In this document: in pieces, positions 49,888 to 56,998 of the stretch
Layout of the letters: each line of letters opens with the position of its first letter
How positions within the stretch are numbered: position 1 is the first letter of the stretch
NCBI GenBank assembly: GCA_030949405.1
Contig: JAUZSN010000002.1
Location: forward strand, 992,001 to 1,056,000
Direction of reading: 5' to 3'
Length of the DNA: 64,000 nucleotides
From: Methylococcales bacterium
GTDB taxonomy: Bacteria; Pseudomonadota; Gammaproteobacteria; Methylococcales; Methylomonadaceae
Position numbers and translations under genes: made by a program
The notes under the pieces: model-generated
The model's input: the letters and a program-made list of their open reading frames with translations, nothing else
Told to the model about the DNA's origin: nothing
The model's database searches: none

Positions 49888-50637
49888 TTATAAAATAACG
49901 AGGGTGAGTAAGGTAACTTCAACTAATTCAACCGTTGCCCCGTAAACATCTCCCGTGACTCCGCCTAAACGTTGCAAGGATAATCGACGAATTAAATAAA
50001 TGATAAGACCTGTAAACAAAAGTTCCATCAACCCGATAACATAACAACCAATCAAAACACTGAGGCTTAAAATAATAAGGGCGGCTATTTTAGGAAAATA
50101 AGCATTTAATGTTTTTGCTAATCCTTGAGGACTCACGTAGGGCGTTGACAGCATTAAGGCTAAAATAGCCGACCGTCCTAAAGCAGGAATTAGGATTAAA
50201 TACCCTAAAAAATCAGGTTGGATCAATAAACGTGATAAGGCAACCCATTTAAGTAACAACAGTAAAACTAAAATAACGACAGCAATTGCCCCTGAACGAG
50301 GATCTTTCATAATCGCCAGACTACGTTGCGGACTTTCTAATCCTCCTGCCCAAGCATCGGCACAATCGGCAAGTCCATCTAAATGCAATCCGCCTGTAAT
50401 GGCGACCCATACCATTAAAATAAGGGCGGCATTAACGGTGAAATGTGTTTCCACTAGCAGGAAGGCGATGAAGGCTATAAGAGAACCGATAATTAAACCC
50501 ACGATAGGGTAAAACAAAACAGTTTGTCCCCATTGTTTATCACTAACAACGCGGTTAAAAGTGATTGGAATACGCGTTAAAAATTGCAAGGCTAACAAAA
50601 ATGAGCTTACGACGTTAAGTTGGGTTAAGCGCATCAA
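49888..50637 (-). CDS. cobS: CobS, adenosylcobinamide-GDP ribazoletransferase
   Basis: 249 aa, very hydrophobic, seven or so membrane segments. The family signature near residues 60-100 is clear: GGLHLDGLADCADAW followed by RSLAIMKDPRSGAIA, with metal-binding aspartates. It joins the lower ligand to cobinamide in cobalamin synthesis. No other cob gene is nearby. Its first codons overlap the end of the kinase gene by 23 nt. Confidence 0.95.
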   Translation of the reverse strand: MMRLTQLNVVSSFLLALQFLTRIPITFNRVVSDKQWGQTVLFYPIVGLIIGSLIAFIAFLLVETHFTVNAALILMVWVAITGGLHLDGLADCADAWAGGLESPQRSLAIMKDPRSGAIAVVILVLLLLLKWVALSRLLIQPDFLGYLILIPALGRSAILALMLSTPYVSPQGLAKTLNAYFPKIAALIILSLSVLIGCYVIGLMELLFTGLIIYLIRRLSLQRLGGVTGDVYGATVELVEVTLLTLVIL

Positions 50638-51511
50638 TTAAAGCCTCTGTTGTTTGGGGTCTTTTTGCGGGTTGTATTTCAGTTGCCCAGTCAATAGCCT
50701 CAAGTAAATAAGTCGGTAATTTACGTTTATAGGCTTTGGTGGCAGGAATGGTGACATCGTGTTTAATTCGTTCAGGTGAAGGTTGCATCGCTTTACAATC
50801 TAAGCACGATCGCATACTGGCACCAATCGCATAAATATCAGTCCATGGGCCTATTCGGGTTTTATTTCGGTATTGTTCAATGGGTGAAAAACCATGAGTA
50901 ATCACTAGAGGTTGATTATTAGTCAGCTCCGACATTTTTTTTATCGCACCAAAATCAAGTAATAATGGCGAATTTTCAGGACGAATTAATATATTCCCAG
51001 GTTTAATATCCAAATGTAGCATTTTTTGAGCATGTATTTTACTCACGCCCCCCAATAAATCAGTAAAAACTCGGACTAAAAAATCCTCGGTCATAGGAAT
51101 TATTTTATTGGCAACAATCTTATTTAACCCTAAGCCATAATCGTAATTCATCACCATATAAACGGTTGCATTGGCTTTAAAAAAGTTAGTGACGGCAACA
51201 ATGTTCTTATGCTTTAATTGTGACAGAACTCGGGCTTCTTCAAAAAACAACGCCAGTCCTTTATTAAAGAGCAGTTTATCTTCTTTACTATTGGGAACAA
51301 CCACATTGTTCCACGTTCGGTGGGCTTGTTTTCTAGGCAGAAACTCTTTAATGGCGACTTGAGTTTGGTCTTTTAGTCGTCTAGCCAAGTAAACTGAACT
51401 AAATCCGCCATGGGCTAATTCTCGCTCAATCATGTATTGATCTAAAATAGTGCCTGATTGTAAATAGTTCCATTTAGTAAGATAAGTTTTTGGATCGTAA
51501 TATTCAGCCAT
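50615..51511 (-). CDS. Soluble Ser/Thr protein kinase (Hanks type)
   Basis: 298 aa, catalytic domain only. Glycine loop GGFSSV (35-40), Lys55 in VAIKEF, catalytic loop HLDIKPGN with Asp168, DFG at 186-188 and a C-lobe HGFSPIEQYRN activation region. There is no membrane segment or PASTA domain. cobS starts inside its end, so the two are translated together, although no functional link is known. A phosphothreonine-reading FHA domain occurs in the cyclase at 20232-21146. Confidence 0.9.
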   Translation of the reverse strand: MAEYYDPKTYLTKWNYLQSGTILDQYMIERELAHGGFSSVYLARRLKDQTQVAIKEFLPRKQAHRTWNNVVVPNSKEDKLLFNKGLALFFEEARVLSQLKHKNIVAVTNFFKANATVYMVMNYDYGLGLNKIVANKIIPMTEDFLVRVFTDLLGGVSKIHAQKMLHLDIKPGNILIRPENSPLLLDFGAIKKMSELTNNQPLVITHGFSPIEQYRNKTRIGPWTDIYAIGASMRSCLDCKAMQPSPERIKHDVTIPATKAYKRKLPTYLLEAIDWATEIQPAKRPQTTEALIDALNPT

Positions 51512-52439: not shown

Positions 52440-54773
52440 TTACGCGAGTTTTTTGTATAAATTTTTACGAATAGTGGCGTAATAATCACGGGGATTTTCG
52501 CCCTTAATTTTTAGATCAATCAAATCATGATGATAGTCAACCTCAATCAATGCTGAGCAATTAAACTCCGTTTCAGTTAATAGAAAACAGGTACGACTAC
52601 TTTTATCAAAATTTATCTGTGCGTAAAATTGAGTTATAAAACGAAAAATAAACAGTTCATCTAAAAAGTTATACTGAATTTGAAATTGTAAGGCCTCGCT
52701 GTCATCAAAGTTAATATCTAAGGGCTGCTCACGTAAACGCTGAGGAATTAAAACTCGGCTCTCATCAATGGGACAGCTAAGATAAAATCGTTTGAGTAGG
52801 GTCATTAAATAATTCTGTTCTTTGGGCGAATAATTAGCATTCTCGATGATTTTTAACGTGATTGATACATCATCTAAGGCTAACTCGGCGGAATCATCTG
52901 AAATTAAATTCGTGGTTGTAATGGCATATAACCCGTTGATTAACCAGTTAGGCTCAAAAATATAATCAATATCTGGGGTTAATTCTTTAAAATAAACAAC
53001 CTTACCTAAATCATGCAGCAATTGAAGTAAATTTTTCTGCATTTTAGGCTCTTTTAACCCGTGTTTATAACAAATATCAGTATAGGTTTCATACGCAAGA
53101 CAGACGTTATTTTTTTGCTGTTTTTCGAGGGCTTCCTTTATGTAAAACGCACTGAGTGATAACGGCTTACGAAACGAAGGAACATGTTGATAGGCCGTCA
53201 CTAACCCTTGTTTAAAAACATCTAACCCAACCCCTTGTGAGGATGAAACGGGATAAATGCCGCGTAAACCTTTATAGCGATGGAGTAAATAATCACGCTG
53301 AAGATCGTAACTATTTTCTTCGTCAAATTTATTCAATACAATGAGAATTAACGAATTTTCCCCAAGCTGTTCAATTCGGCGTAACCAACGTTCTTCATGC
53401 CGTTGTTTACGATTATCAAGGACTAAGATGTATAAGCTATGCTGAGAAAAAAATAATTTATGGGTGGGTAATAAGCATGGATCGCCTCCAAAATCCCATA
53501 AATTGACGCAAATTTCATCATGCTCCCACGTATCTATATTGATTCCTAGTGTTTGTAACGGCTGAGATTCAAACGGTAAATTACGCAACGCTTTACTTAA
53601 CGAGGTTTTACCTACCCCCAAATCCCCAACAATCAACACTTTAACTTTATTTAAAGCTCGCTCTTGCTGGCTTTCAAAAAAATTTTTAATGCCTCGATTG
53701 CCTTCTCTAATCACGTCGGGTGGAGGCGATTCAATAGGGTTCGCAATGACGCTAATGCCATGCCCGCCATTACTCCATTTTATTGCTAAATTAAAATTAA
53801 GAATCCATTTAGGAAGAATTGTAATCTGATTATCACTTAAATAAAGATGGGTTAAGAACTTAAGTTCTTTTAACGAATTAATACAACTAATTTGATTTCC
53901 TCTCAAATTAAGCTGAGTTAATTTAGTCAGGTCTTTAAGGACAGATATATCGCTAATTTCATTCGATTCTAAATGTAAATGGGTTAAGGCGGTTAATTTT
54001 TTTAAGACCGAAATATCATCAATTCGATTTGCCCTTAAATCAAGTAAGCGTAACAAATTGAGGTTTTCAATAATATGAATCGTTTTTATTTTATTAGCAT
54101 TTAAATGAAGCTCGGTTAAGGCCGTAAGCTTGATTAAGGGATGAATATCATCGATTTGATTTGAACTTAAAAAGAGTTTTGTTAATTTGTTATGATCCGC
54201 AAGTTCGGTAATATTGCTAATTTTATTAAATCTTAAATCCAACTCGGTTAATTCATTCATTGTACTTAAAATGGATAATGAATTAATTTGGTTGTCACTT
54301 AAATCAAGATGGGTTAACTGGCCTAAAGTTTTTAATGGTTCAAAACAGGTAATAGGGTTGGAACTTAAGTTAAGTTTTTTAAGATTTTTTAAATGAGATA
54401 ATACTTTAATATCAATAATATCATTGGCTTGTAAATTTAAACTTTTTAAATTTTTAAGGGATTTTAAGGCACCAATGTCGTTAATTTCATTTTTTTGTAA
54501 ATTTAATTCATCGAGTTGATTGAGTTTTTTAAGCGGCTGTAATTCGACAATTTTATTCAGGGTTAAATTAAGCTTAGTCAAATTAAGTAATGACTTAACA
54601 AGATAACACTGGGTTAATTTATAATTTTGTAAATTTAAACCGATGACGTGTTGCTCATCATTTAAAACGTAACATCCACGGGCATGGGTGTTCATAATTT
54701 CTACATACAAGCAGAGCCTTAATTCCTCACCTATTTGTTTTTCTAAGGCTTTAATAATATCTAAATCGGACAT
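52440..54773 (-). CDS. Bacterial Roco protein: 12 leucine-rich repeats, Roc GTPase, COR-like region
   Basis: 777 aa. Residues about 65-330 hold twelve regular 22-residue leucine-rich repeats (pattern LxxLxLxxNxIxxIxxLxxL). The Roc GTPase follows: GDLGVGKTS (G1) near 390, WDFGGDP (G3) and VLNKFDEE (G4). From about 550 to the end is a region with COR-like features (PSFRKPLSLSAFYIKEAL, LHDLGKVVYF, IFEPNWLINGLY). This LRR-Roc-COR order is that of the Roco family, whose bacterial members dimerise through COR. There is no kinase domain. No signal or membrane segment. It converges with yicC and stands alone; its role is unknown. Confidence 0.93.
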   Translation of the reverse strand: MSDLDIIKALEKQIGEELRLCLYVEIMNTHARGCYVLNDEQHVIGLNLQNYKLTQCYLVKSLLNLTKLNLTLNKIVELQPLKKLNQLDELNLQKNEINDIGALKSLKNLKSLNLQANDIIDIKVLSHLKNLKKLNLSSNPITCFEPLKTLGQLTHLDLSDNQINSLSILSTMNELTELDLRFNKISNITELADHNKLTKLFLSSNQIDDIHPLIKLTALTELHLNANKIKTIHIIENLNLLRLLDLRANRIDDISVLKKLTALTHLHLESNEISDISVLKDLTKLTQLNLRGNQISCINSLKELKFLTHLYLSDNQITILPKWILNFNLAIKWSNGGHGISVIANPIESPPPDVIREGNRGIKNFFESQQERALNKVKVLIVGDLGVGKTSLSKALRNLPFESQPLQTLGINIDTWEHDEICVNLWDFGGDPCLLPTHKLFFSQHSLYILVLDNRKQRHEERWLRRIEQLGENSLILIVLNKFDEENSYDLQRDYLLHRYKGLRGIYPVSSSQGVGLDVFKQGLVTAYQHVPSFRKPLSLSAFYIKEALEKQQKNNVCLAYETYTDICYKHGLKEPKMQKNLLQLLHDLGKVVYFKELTPDIDYIFEPNWLINGLYAITTTNLISDDSAELALDDVSITLKIIENANYSPKEQNYLMTLLKRFYLSCPIDESRVLIPQRLREQPLDINFDDSEALQFQIQYNFLDELFIFRFITQFYAQINFDKSSRTCFLLTETEFNCSALIEVDYHHDLIDLKIKGENPRDYYATIRKNLYKKLA

Positions 54774-55909: not shown

Positions 55910-56668
55910 CTAAAAAGGAACATCGTCAACAAACTCATCAGCGGCAGGTGACGGTTTATTTGCGGGTTGTTGCACGGGTTGAGATTGATTAAATGAAGGA
56001 TTTTGTGGTTGTTGAACAGGGGGCTGTTGTACGGGCGGTTGTTGCACGGGTGACTGCTGCACAGGCGGTTGCTGTGTTTGGGGTTGTTGAGTGAATTGAT
56101 TAACAGGTTGGTTAATAGGCGGTGTTTGATAACCTTGTTGTTGAACGGGCTGATGAACTTGCTGCGTTTGTTGGGGCTGTTGAAAGTTTTGTTGCGGTGT
56201 TGGCTGATTAAATTGTTGTGTTTGTTGGGCTTGCTGAGGTTGTTGAAAATTTTGATTCGCTTGAGGGGCTGCATTCGTTGCTTGAGGAGCCGCATTCGTC
56301 GCTTGCTGACCAAACTCAGCCGTTCCCCCTGCACGAGAATCTAACATTTGCATTTGATCAGCAATAATATCGGTTGAATAATGATCTTGTCCATTTTTTT
56401 GATATTTGGAGGTTTTTAATCGCCCTTCAACATAGATTTTACTGCCTTTTTTTAAATATTCGCCAGCAATTTCGGCTAATTTAAAATTACCGATATTGAA
56501 GAACGTAATTCTATGCCATTCTGCTTCTTCACGTTGCTCACCCGTATTTCTATCTTTCCATCGACGACTAGTGGCAATACGAACACTTGTGACAGTATCA
56601 CCATTGGACATATAACGCACTTCTGGGTCAGCCCCTAAATTGCCAATCAACATAACTTTGTTGAGCAT
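55910..56668 (-). CDS. ssb: SSB with long glutamine/proline-rich linker
   Basis: 252 aa from ATG 56666-56668 ([12 protein letters not shown]), with GGAG 8 nt upstream; a 27-codon upstream extension is not SSB-like. Residues 1-110 are the OB fold. The linker (about 120-240) is almost only Gln, Pro, Asn, Thr and Val with PPVQQ-type repeats and is much longer than in E. coli SSB (178 aa). The tail DEFVDDVPF binds partner proteins such as HolC chi and RecO. It is a single gene. Confidence 0.95.
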
Positions 56669-56998
56669 TGTTTTCTCCGTAAAAAATAAACGTAAATTAA
56701 TGATTAATTTTGGGGAACTATCTTCGCATTTTTTACGTTTTTTTACCATAAGAATACCATCTTGAAATAGATAAAATGAGCTATCAAAATAAAAAAGGAT
56801 TTTATTAGAGTGAATTTTTAAATGCCGCCTTTAAAATGGGCTGTTTTTAAGGTTAAGGTTTAATGAAAACGAATAATCAGGAAGTTTAAACGGACTTCTA
56901 ATCGGTCTTCATGGGGTACGAGCTACCGAGGCATTTGGTTTTATGCGACAATGTAAAATAATTCTTATTGTTTATATATTTACTTAACTTACAAATCC

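Follow-up and report, generated by a model that had tools for sequence, protein, structure and literature searches.

Bacterial Roco proteins serve as structural models for the Parkinson's protein LRRK2, but what they do in the cell is hardly understood according to one account (PMC6337361). In CtRoco, GTP binding itself is described as leading to monomerization and to an open form with a mobile leucine-rich repeat (LRR) domain (PMC11052575; PMC5714945). CORB residues 892 to 940 are reported to be "involved in CtRoco dimerization" (PMC11052575), the dimer interface is formed in part by Roc as well (PMC6337361), and an essential arginine finger has been described (PMC4017136). In LRRK2, the CORB:CORB interface is described as including R1731 (PMC11052575). 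It has been proposed that prokaryotic LRR-AP-GTPase-COR proteins are counter-invader systems in which the LRRs evolve rapidly and the C-terminal domain comes in at least 24 kinds (PMC8195603). An initial sequence-only reading of the DNA described here called the role of bacterial Rocos largely open; to this it must be added that a counter-invader role has been proposed in print (PMC8195603). Our literature search found no publication linking a Roco protein with a methanotroph, and no title (titles and partial texts of the literature on bacterial Roco/AP-GTPase proteins, immunity, or the Roc catalytic glutamine) dealt with a clade such as the one reported below.

The DNA analyzed (here, the window) is the whole stretch of 64,000 nucleotides, to which all coordinates refer; it comes from a methanotroph genome that resembles those of Methylococcaceae. 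An open reading frame on its minus strand (52440..54773) begins with ATG and encodes 777 amino acids; the ORF and Pfam identify the product as an LRR-Roc-COR (Roco) protein. All of the features described for this gene lie on the same strand. By sequence comparison, the N-terminal head (residues 1 to 42; 54648..54773) starts with MSDLD, like CtRoco. Twelve 22-residue LRRs (residues 65 to 328; 53790..54581), delimited by pattern, DNA comparison, and structure model, are matched by LRR_4 (E, 2.7e-39). The LRR-Roc linker (residues 329 to 371; 53661..53789), defined by clade comparison, contains GGxGIS; measured over residues 326 to 371, it is better conserved than any other segment in the clade described below. 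Pfam, the model, and structure comparison place the Roc GTPase domain at residues 372 to 535 (53169..53660; PF08477 over residues 378 to 484; E, 2.7e-22). COR-A, from Pfam and the model, follows at residues 536 to 690 (52704..53168; PF16095 at 544 to 679; E, 7.9e-21; profile positions 6 to 142 of 143). The first half of COR-B (residues 691 to 777; 52440..52703) then leads directly to the stop codon, and its Pfam match (PF25497 at 693 to 773; E, 1.9e-7) covers only profile positions 2 to 81 of 145.

The AlphaFold2 model of the window protein had a mean pLDDT of 91 and a pTM of 0.56, a value at which the placement of the LRR on Roc-COR is unreliable. The best PDB match by sequence was CtRoco (6hlu; E, 4.3e-158), and CtRoco was also at the top of both structure comparisons. 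The Roc-COR part of the model matched GTP-state CtRoco (8r4d) with a Z score of 34.1 and an rmsd of 2.2 A over 346 residues. A COR fold is thus predicted for the C-terminal region (pLDDT, 91; 8r4d Z, 34.1), the point on which the sequence-only reading had made its assignment depend. The architecture without a kinase that it had proposed is borne out by Pfam, which finds Roc, COR-A, and COR-B and no fused kinase. An internalin-like secreted protein was considered and is not favored, as the likeness to internalins is confined to the repeats. The gene encodes a genuine LRR-Roc-COR protein, as its Roc domain, the COR that follows it, and its descent all indicate.

In the comparisons with 6hlu and 3dpu (nucleotide-free) and with 8r4d (GTP state), the final residue of the model, 777, falls on CtRoco residue 881. 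The window protein therefore stops just before the dimerization segment and has no counterpart of CtRoco 892 to 940 as delimited in PMC11052575. No residues follow the half COR-B; i.e., a C-terminal effector domain is absent. Six relatives share this anatomy, three from the genus of the window (in genomes G004, G005, and G002) and three from a second genus (G030, G061, and G062). Coverage of the COR-B profile ends at positions 81 to 85 of 145 in all seven, with the matches of two of these members, L032 and L034, lying below the curated cut-off. Loss of the C terminus through an assembly frameshift was rejected, as the protein ends alike in all seven genomes and only 36 bases separate the stop codon from yicC. 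Part of the LRRK2 CORB interface falls in the retained region (the model aligns to LRRK2 1329 to 1789, a range containing R1731), and Roc contributes to the interface in CtRoco, so dimer formation is still conceivable.

To place the seven proteins, we compared them with 38 other Rocos, 37 from the same family and one (L044) from another family of the order. They come from searches that scored the best two to four candidates per genome and are not a census. The 7 and the 38 derive from 48 extracted proteins, after leaving out both pieces of an interrupted gene of G026 (L036) and L075, whose match stops inside COR; L031 was left out because it lies on the same contig as L032. L036 is a longer Roco broken by a stop codon. 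The distance from the P-loop to the end of the protein was 385 to 401 amino acids in all seven members and 432 to 750 in the 38 others. In a tree of 51 Rocos, the seven proteins were monophyletic (99/98) and nested among other Rocos, with the longer L079 as their sister (99/100); L034 and L055 had long branches. Because the seven proteins have one origin, the traits common to all of them (no effector, half COR-B, and no switch-II glutamine) count as one lineage and not as seven cases.

The clade is narrow. Of the 369 genomes sampled from the class, 8 have COR-A, that of the window among them, which agrees with the earlier statement that such proteins are uncommon there. Within the family, 37 of 237 genomes matched the clade profile at E values of ≤1e-30; such proteins are thus uncommon in the class yet not rare in the family. 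Evenly drawn samples from the order (301 genomes) and the class (369 genomes), with the best two or three candidates scored in each genome, yielded nothing else in the range of 533 to 1,075 bits. Two of the six genomes examined from the genus of the window gave no COR-A match, namely G001 (73% complete) and G003 (83% complete). The L031 protein, from a "Methylococcaceae bacterium" MAG, is 65% identical and was the sole locus found in one contig scan.

The nucleotide-binding motif in the P-loop is intact by alignment (GDLGVGKTS; residues 383 to 391; 53601..53627). Arg455 (53409..53411; alignment) occupies the position numbered as R543 in CtRoco, which we take to be the catalytic arginine. This arginine is kept in five of the seven clade members and in all 38 other Rocos. 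At the position of the CtRoco switch-II glutamine, native Q519, the window protein has Asp431 within DFGGD (53481..53483), as counted on the alignment. Both CtRoco numbers were counted on the printed alignment with 6hlu as chain numbering minus 5, and Q519 agrees with the residue named in PMC13345514. The glutamine is replaced by D, E, or K in all seven clade members; it is kept in 37 of the 38 other Rocos from the order, the remaining one (L095) having His. Loss of the glutamine is not special by itself, since LRRK2 has Arg there and just 10 of 20 UniProt Rocos keep Gln, as given in PMC13345514. The same source describes LRRK2 R1398A as 53-fold less active, which makes the residue at this position important for hydrolysis. 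The idea that Gln loss strictly accompanies loss of the tail was also rejected: long tails occur in L095 (His) and L174 (Asp), and three short proteins (L123, L125, and L080) retain Gln.

The LRR domain has a very regular structure. The repeat pattern was matched 12 times, at residues 65, 87, and so on to 307, with every spacing exactly 22, which confirms the twelve regular repeats reported from the sequence; a weaker unit in register can be read at residue 43. When extra pattern matches out of register are ignored, each of the four clade members from the genus of the window has 12 in-register repeats, and each of the three from the second genus has 13. L055 has a single repeat spacing of 21. 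When non-consensus positions were compared with the two closest relatives, the positional partner was the best repeat match for 12 of 13 units each; with the distant G002 protein, this was so for 7 of 13. DNA identity between repeats within the gene averaged 49.9% (maximum, 65.2%), and Tandem Repeats Finder detected no 66-bp array in the gene. The recent repeat gain that had been suggested from this regularity is refuted by the number and order of repeats common to congeners, their roughly 50% likeness in DNA, and the missing array. The regularity is that of a structure maintained over a long time.

Conservation of the LRR was then set against that of Roc. At Roc identities of 33 to 45%, LRR identity was 48.2% within the clade (LRR above Roc in 10 of 10 pairs) versus 26.8% among the others (36 of 258). 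The corresponding values were 53.0% (5 of 6) versus 28.4% (2 of 101) at Roc identities of 45 to 60% and 69.4% (only 1 of 4) versus 45.8% (0 of 32) at 60 to 75%. Without division into bands, the LRR was more alike than Roc in 16 of 20 clade pairs versus 62 of 567 other pairs; the pairs lack independence, and most of the 38 comparison Rocos are paralogues, so that their LRR divergence may be overstated. Pairs below 33% Roc identity were left out (one clade pair, so that 20 of 21 were used, and others likewise), as were, from the banded comparison, 5 of the 38 other proteins with fewer than 200 residues before the P-loop. By these sequence comparisons, the clade LRR is comparatively well conserved, the inverse of the 38 others, in which the LRR outpaces Roc. 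Within the clade LRR, exposed concave positions were more alike than other non-scaffold positions (0.52 versus 0.27; position-label permutation, P = 0.016), and the difference was also seen in the window's genus alone (0.65 versus 0.33; P = 0.002). Much of this signal comes from the fifth and seventh positions, so the concave conservation may partly reflect the fold.

These data bear on whether the gene is what remains of an immune gene in decay. In favor of such a relic, the protein is without the tail, the glutamine, and half of COR-B, COR-A and COR-B diverge fastest within the clade, and two of the seven members have also lost the arginine. Decay is nevertheless very unlikely, given that the ORFs are intact in all seven genomes and in both genera, that dN (0.26) is far below dS (1.9 to 2.1, near saturation) for the window gene versus L033 and L032, that the concave LRR face is conserved, and that the fold is confidently predicted.

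Among the wider relatives, C-terminal effectors are recognizable. Pfam identified TIR_2 in L037 and L057, a CHAT domain in L060, and AAA_15/AAA_21 in L086, and a ThsB TIR-type model matched 7 of 30 scanned proteins. These effectors fit the counter-invader proposal of PMC8195603. The longer Rocos nearest to the clade, L079 and L056, continue past COR-B for 187 and 154 residues, in which Pfam finds no domain, so an effector in the direct ancestor of the clade is deduced from the wider relatives. With these relatives (TIR, CHAT, and AAA effectors) and the published proposal for LRR-AP-GTPase-COR proteins (PMC8195603) in its favor, the window protein might still be a counter-invader receptor whose LRR senses an invader and which recruits a separate effector in trans. 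We consider this rather unlikely, as the clade LRRs are comparatively conserved and not fast-evolving, no PADLOC model (2023 library) matched the window protein at E values of ≤0.01, and no partner gene is conserved beside the gene (see below).

Some relatives outside the clade share part of its traits. L123 (G613) ends shortly after a half COR-B (profile positions 5 to 85 of 145), with Gln kept and Arg absent; half COR-B is therefore not unique to the clade. The Arg loss of L123 was discarded as a further case, since its longer relatives L149, L150, L158, and L161 also lack Arg. In three genomes of another proteobacterial family in the phylum sample, the Rocos L171, L172, and L174 have a nearly complete COR-B, and no recognizable effector was found in L171 and L174 by Pfam or, judged by length, in L172. 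Their switch II motifs read DFSGA, DFSGD, and DFSGD, respectively, and NKxD is replaced by HRAD or ARAD in this lineage. A quick tree, with a weakly supported root, puts them outside the clade. As far as sequences indicate, joint loss of a recognizable effector and the glutamine is seen in two lineages, without being a strict rule. We also recorded partial relatives: an LRR-only protein of 633 amino acids in G030 (L042:8915-10816), which shares the clade's N-terminal head and LRR and shows no Roc or COR in Pfam; matches to the clade head and LRR only on G061 contig C93 and G062 contig C209; and small GTPase matches in G000, G004, and other genomes, open frames of about 170 to 180 amino acids with Roc alone.

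The gene was described from the sequence as lying alone among core genes, and its neighbors are indeed housekeeping genes by Pfam (yicC, phosphatidylserine decarboxylase [psd], and SSB). In the SSB encoded in the window (55910-56749), short degenerate tandem repeats in the DNA specify a long tail rich in Gln and Pro. Conserved neighbors, raised as a possible clue by the sequence-only reading, were not seen across the clade. The psd gene is divergent to the Roco gene in three of the seven genomes (the window, G004, and G005). In the three genomes of the second genus (G030, G061, and G062), the gene directly upstream on the same strand (L035:7972-8550, L082:7099-7665, and L085:4139-4696) is one that we take to be NUDIX-like from a motif, with no Pfam assignment. 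The neighbors in G002 differ from both arrangements.

Two genes away on the same strand, beside cobS, the window also contains a gene for a small Ser/Thr kinase (50615-51511; Pkinase E, 5.7e-31), a position that invites the idea of a split LRRK in which this kinase acts with the window protein. The kinase is present in nine of nine genomes, including two incomplete ones with no COR-A match, with best matches 68 to 86% identical in the eight others. In the draft assemblies of the six other genomes that carry a clade gene, the kinase is always on another contig. With no linkage to the clade gene outside the window genome, the split LRRK was rejected and seems to us barely credible.

Other Rocos in the same cell would allow the clade protein to act as their dominant-negative partner. 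G030 is Roco-rich, with five COR-A matches above the cut-off (L035, L041, L043, and L022), the clade gene counted, and G061 has two, the clade gene again included. In the other five of the seven clade-bearing genomes (G000, which is that of the window, G002, G004, G005, and G062), no other COR-A lies above the cut-off, and we regard this role as highly improbable. A 23-bit COR-A match with stops (G000:C2:1726252) hinted at another Roco in the genome of the window; it was dismissed as chance after tblastn with the 51 Rocos (E ≤ 1e-3) returned nothing there.

Anatomy and descent are thus observed, and from them we infer a function for the window protein. The account that we favor, at somewhat less than an even chance, is the repurposing of an immune-type Roco into a GTP switch or scaffold, poor in hydrolysis and probably monomeric, that reads a conserved partner and gives its output in trans. 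The ancestor would have been a longer, probably effector-bearing immune-type receptor. The window protein would bind nucleotide without hydrolyzing it efficiently and exist mainly as a monomer; because CtRoco monomerizes on GTP, a protein without the dimer segment would resemble the GTP-state half of that cycle. GTP binding would shift the LRR relative to Roc-COR, and the concave face of the LRR, itself conserved, would recognize a partner that is likewise conserved instead of a fast-changing invader. Binding of this partner would yield the output, presumably in trans since no fused enzyme is left.

Possible, though doubtful, is a tamed immune-type Roco that has discarded its effector tail, dimer arm, and catalytic glutamine while its sensor stayed nearly fixed, and that would now serve as a housekeeping GTP sensor or scaffold for a conserved self-ligand. 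Such taming may have occurred more than once in the phylum, as L171, L172, and L174 also lack a recognizable effector and the glutamine. If this is true, a tamed Roco would be a bacterial parallel to the kinase-free eukaryotic Rocos. The clade offers a natural experiment on the parts that a Roco switch needs, with the sensor and nucleotide site kept and the CORB dimer segment and glutamine gone. It also offers a contrast for testing the domestication of immune receptors, i.e., tailed Rocos with fast LRRs versus tailless ones with well-conserved LRRs. What is new is a narrow clade of effector-less, half-CORB, Gln-less Rocos with a well-conserved sensor; the family itself is known.

Compared with known systems, the window protein resembles internalins and SDS22 in its 22-residue LRR class (Z scores of about 35 for InlA and about 30 for SDS22) and in the LRR part alone. 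It shares the Roc-COR fold with LRRK2/LRRK1 (8fo9; Z, 29.9; model residues 371 to 777), and LRRK2 likewise lacks the glutamine; unlike them, it has no kinase or other domains. With the AP-GTPase-COR conflict systems, as described in PMC8195603, it has in common the LRR-Roc-COR core, and relatives in the order have TIR, CHAT, and AAA C termini; it differs in having no C-terminal domain, a comparatively conserved LRR, and the sole COR-A above the cut-off in its genome. CtRoco (PDB 6hlu, 8r4b, 8r4d, and 3dpu) has the same N-terminal head, the same LRR-Roc-COR order and fold, and an Arg at the R543 position, whereas the window protein is without CORB 892 to 940 and the last ~150 residues and has Asp for Q519. 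It therefore departs from a CtRoco-type GTP dimer-monomer switch in both the CORB segment and the switch-II glutamine. Finally, Methanosarcina barkeri Roco2 RocCORdC (4wnr) has the same Roc and COR-A fold (Z, 33.3); that construct is an artificial truncation further upstream, whereas the window protein has its natural end inside COR-B.
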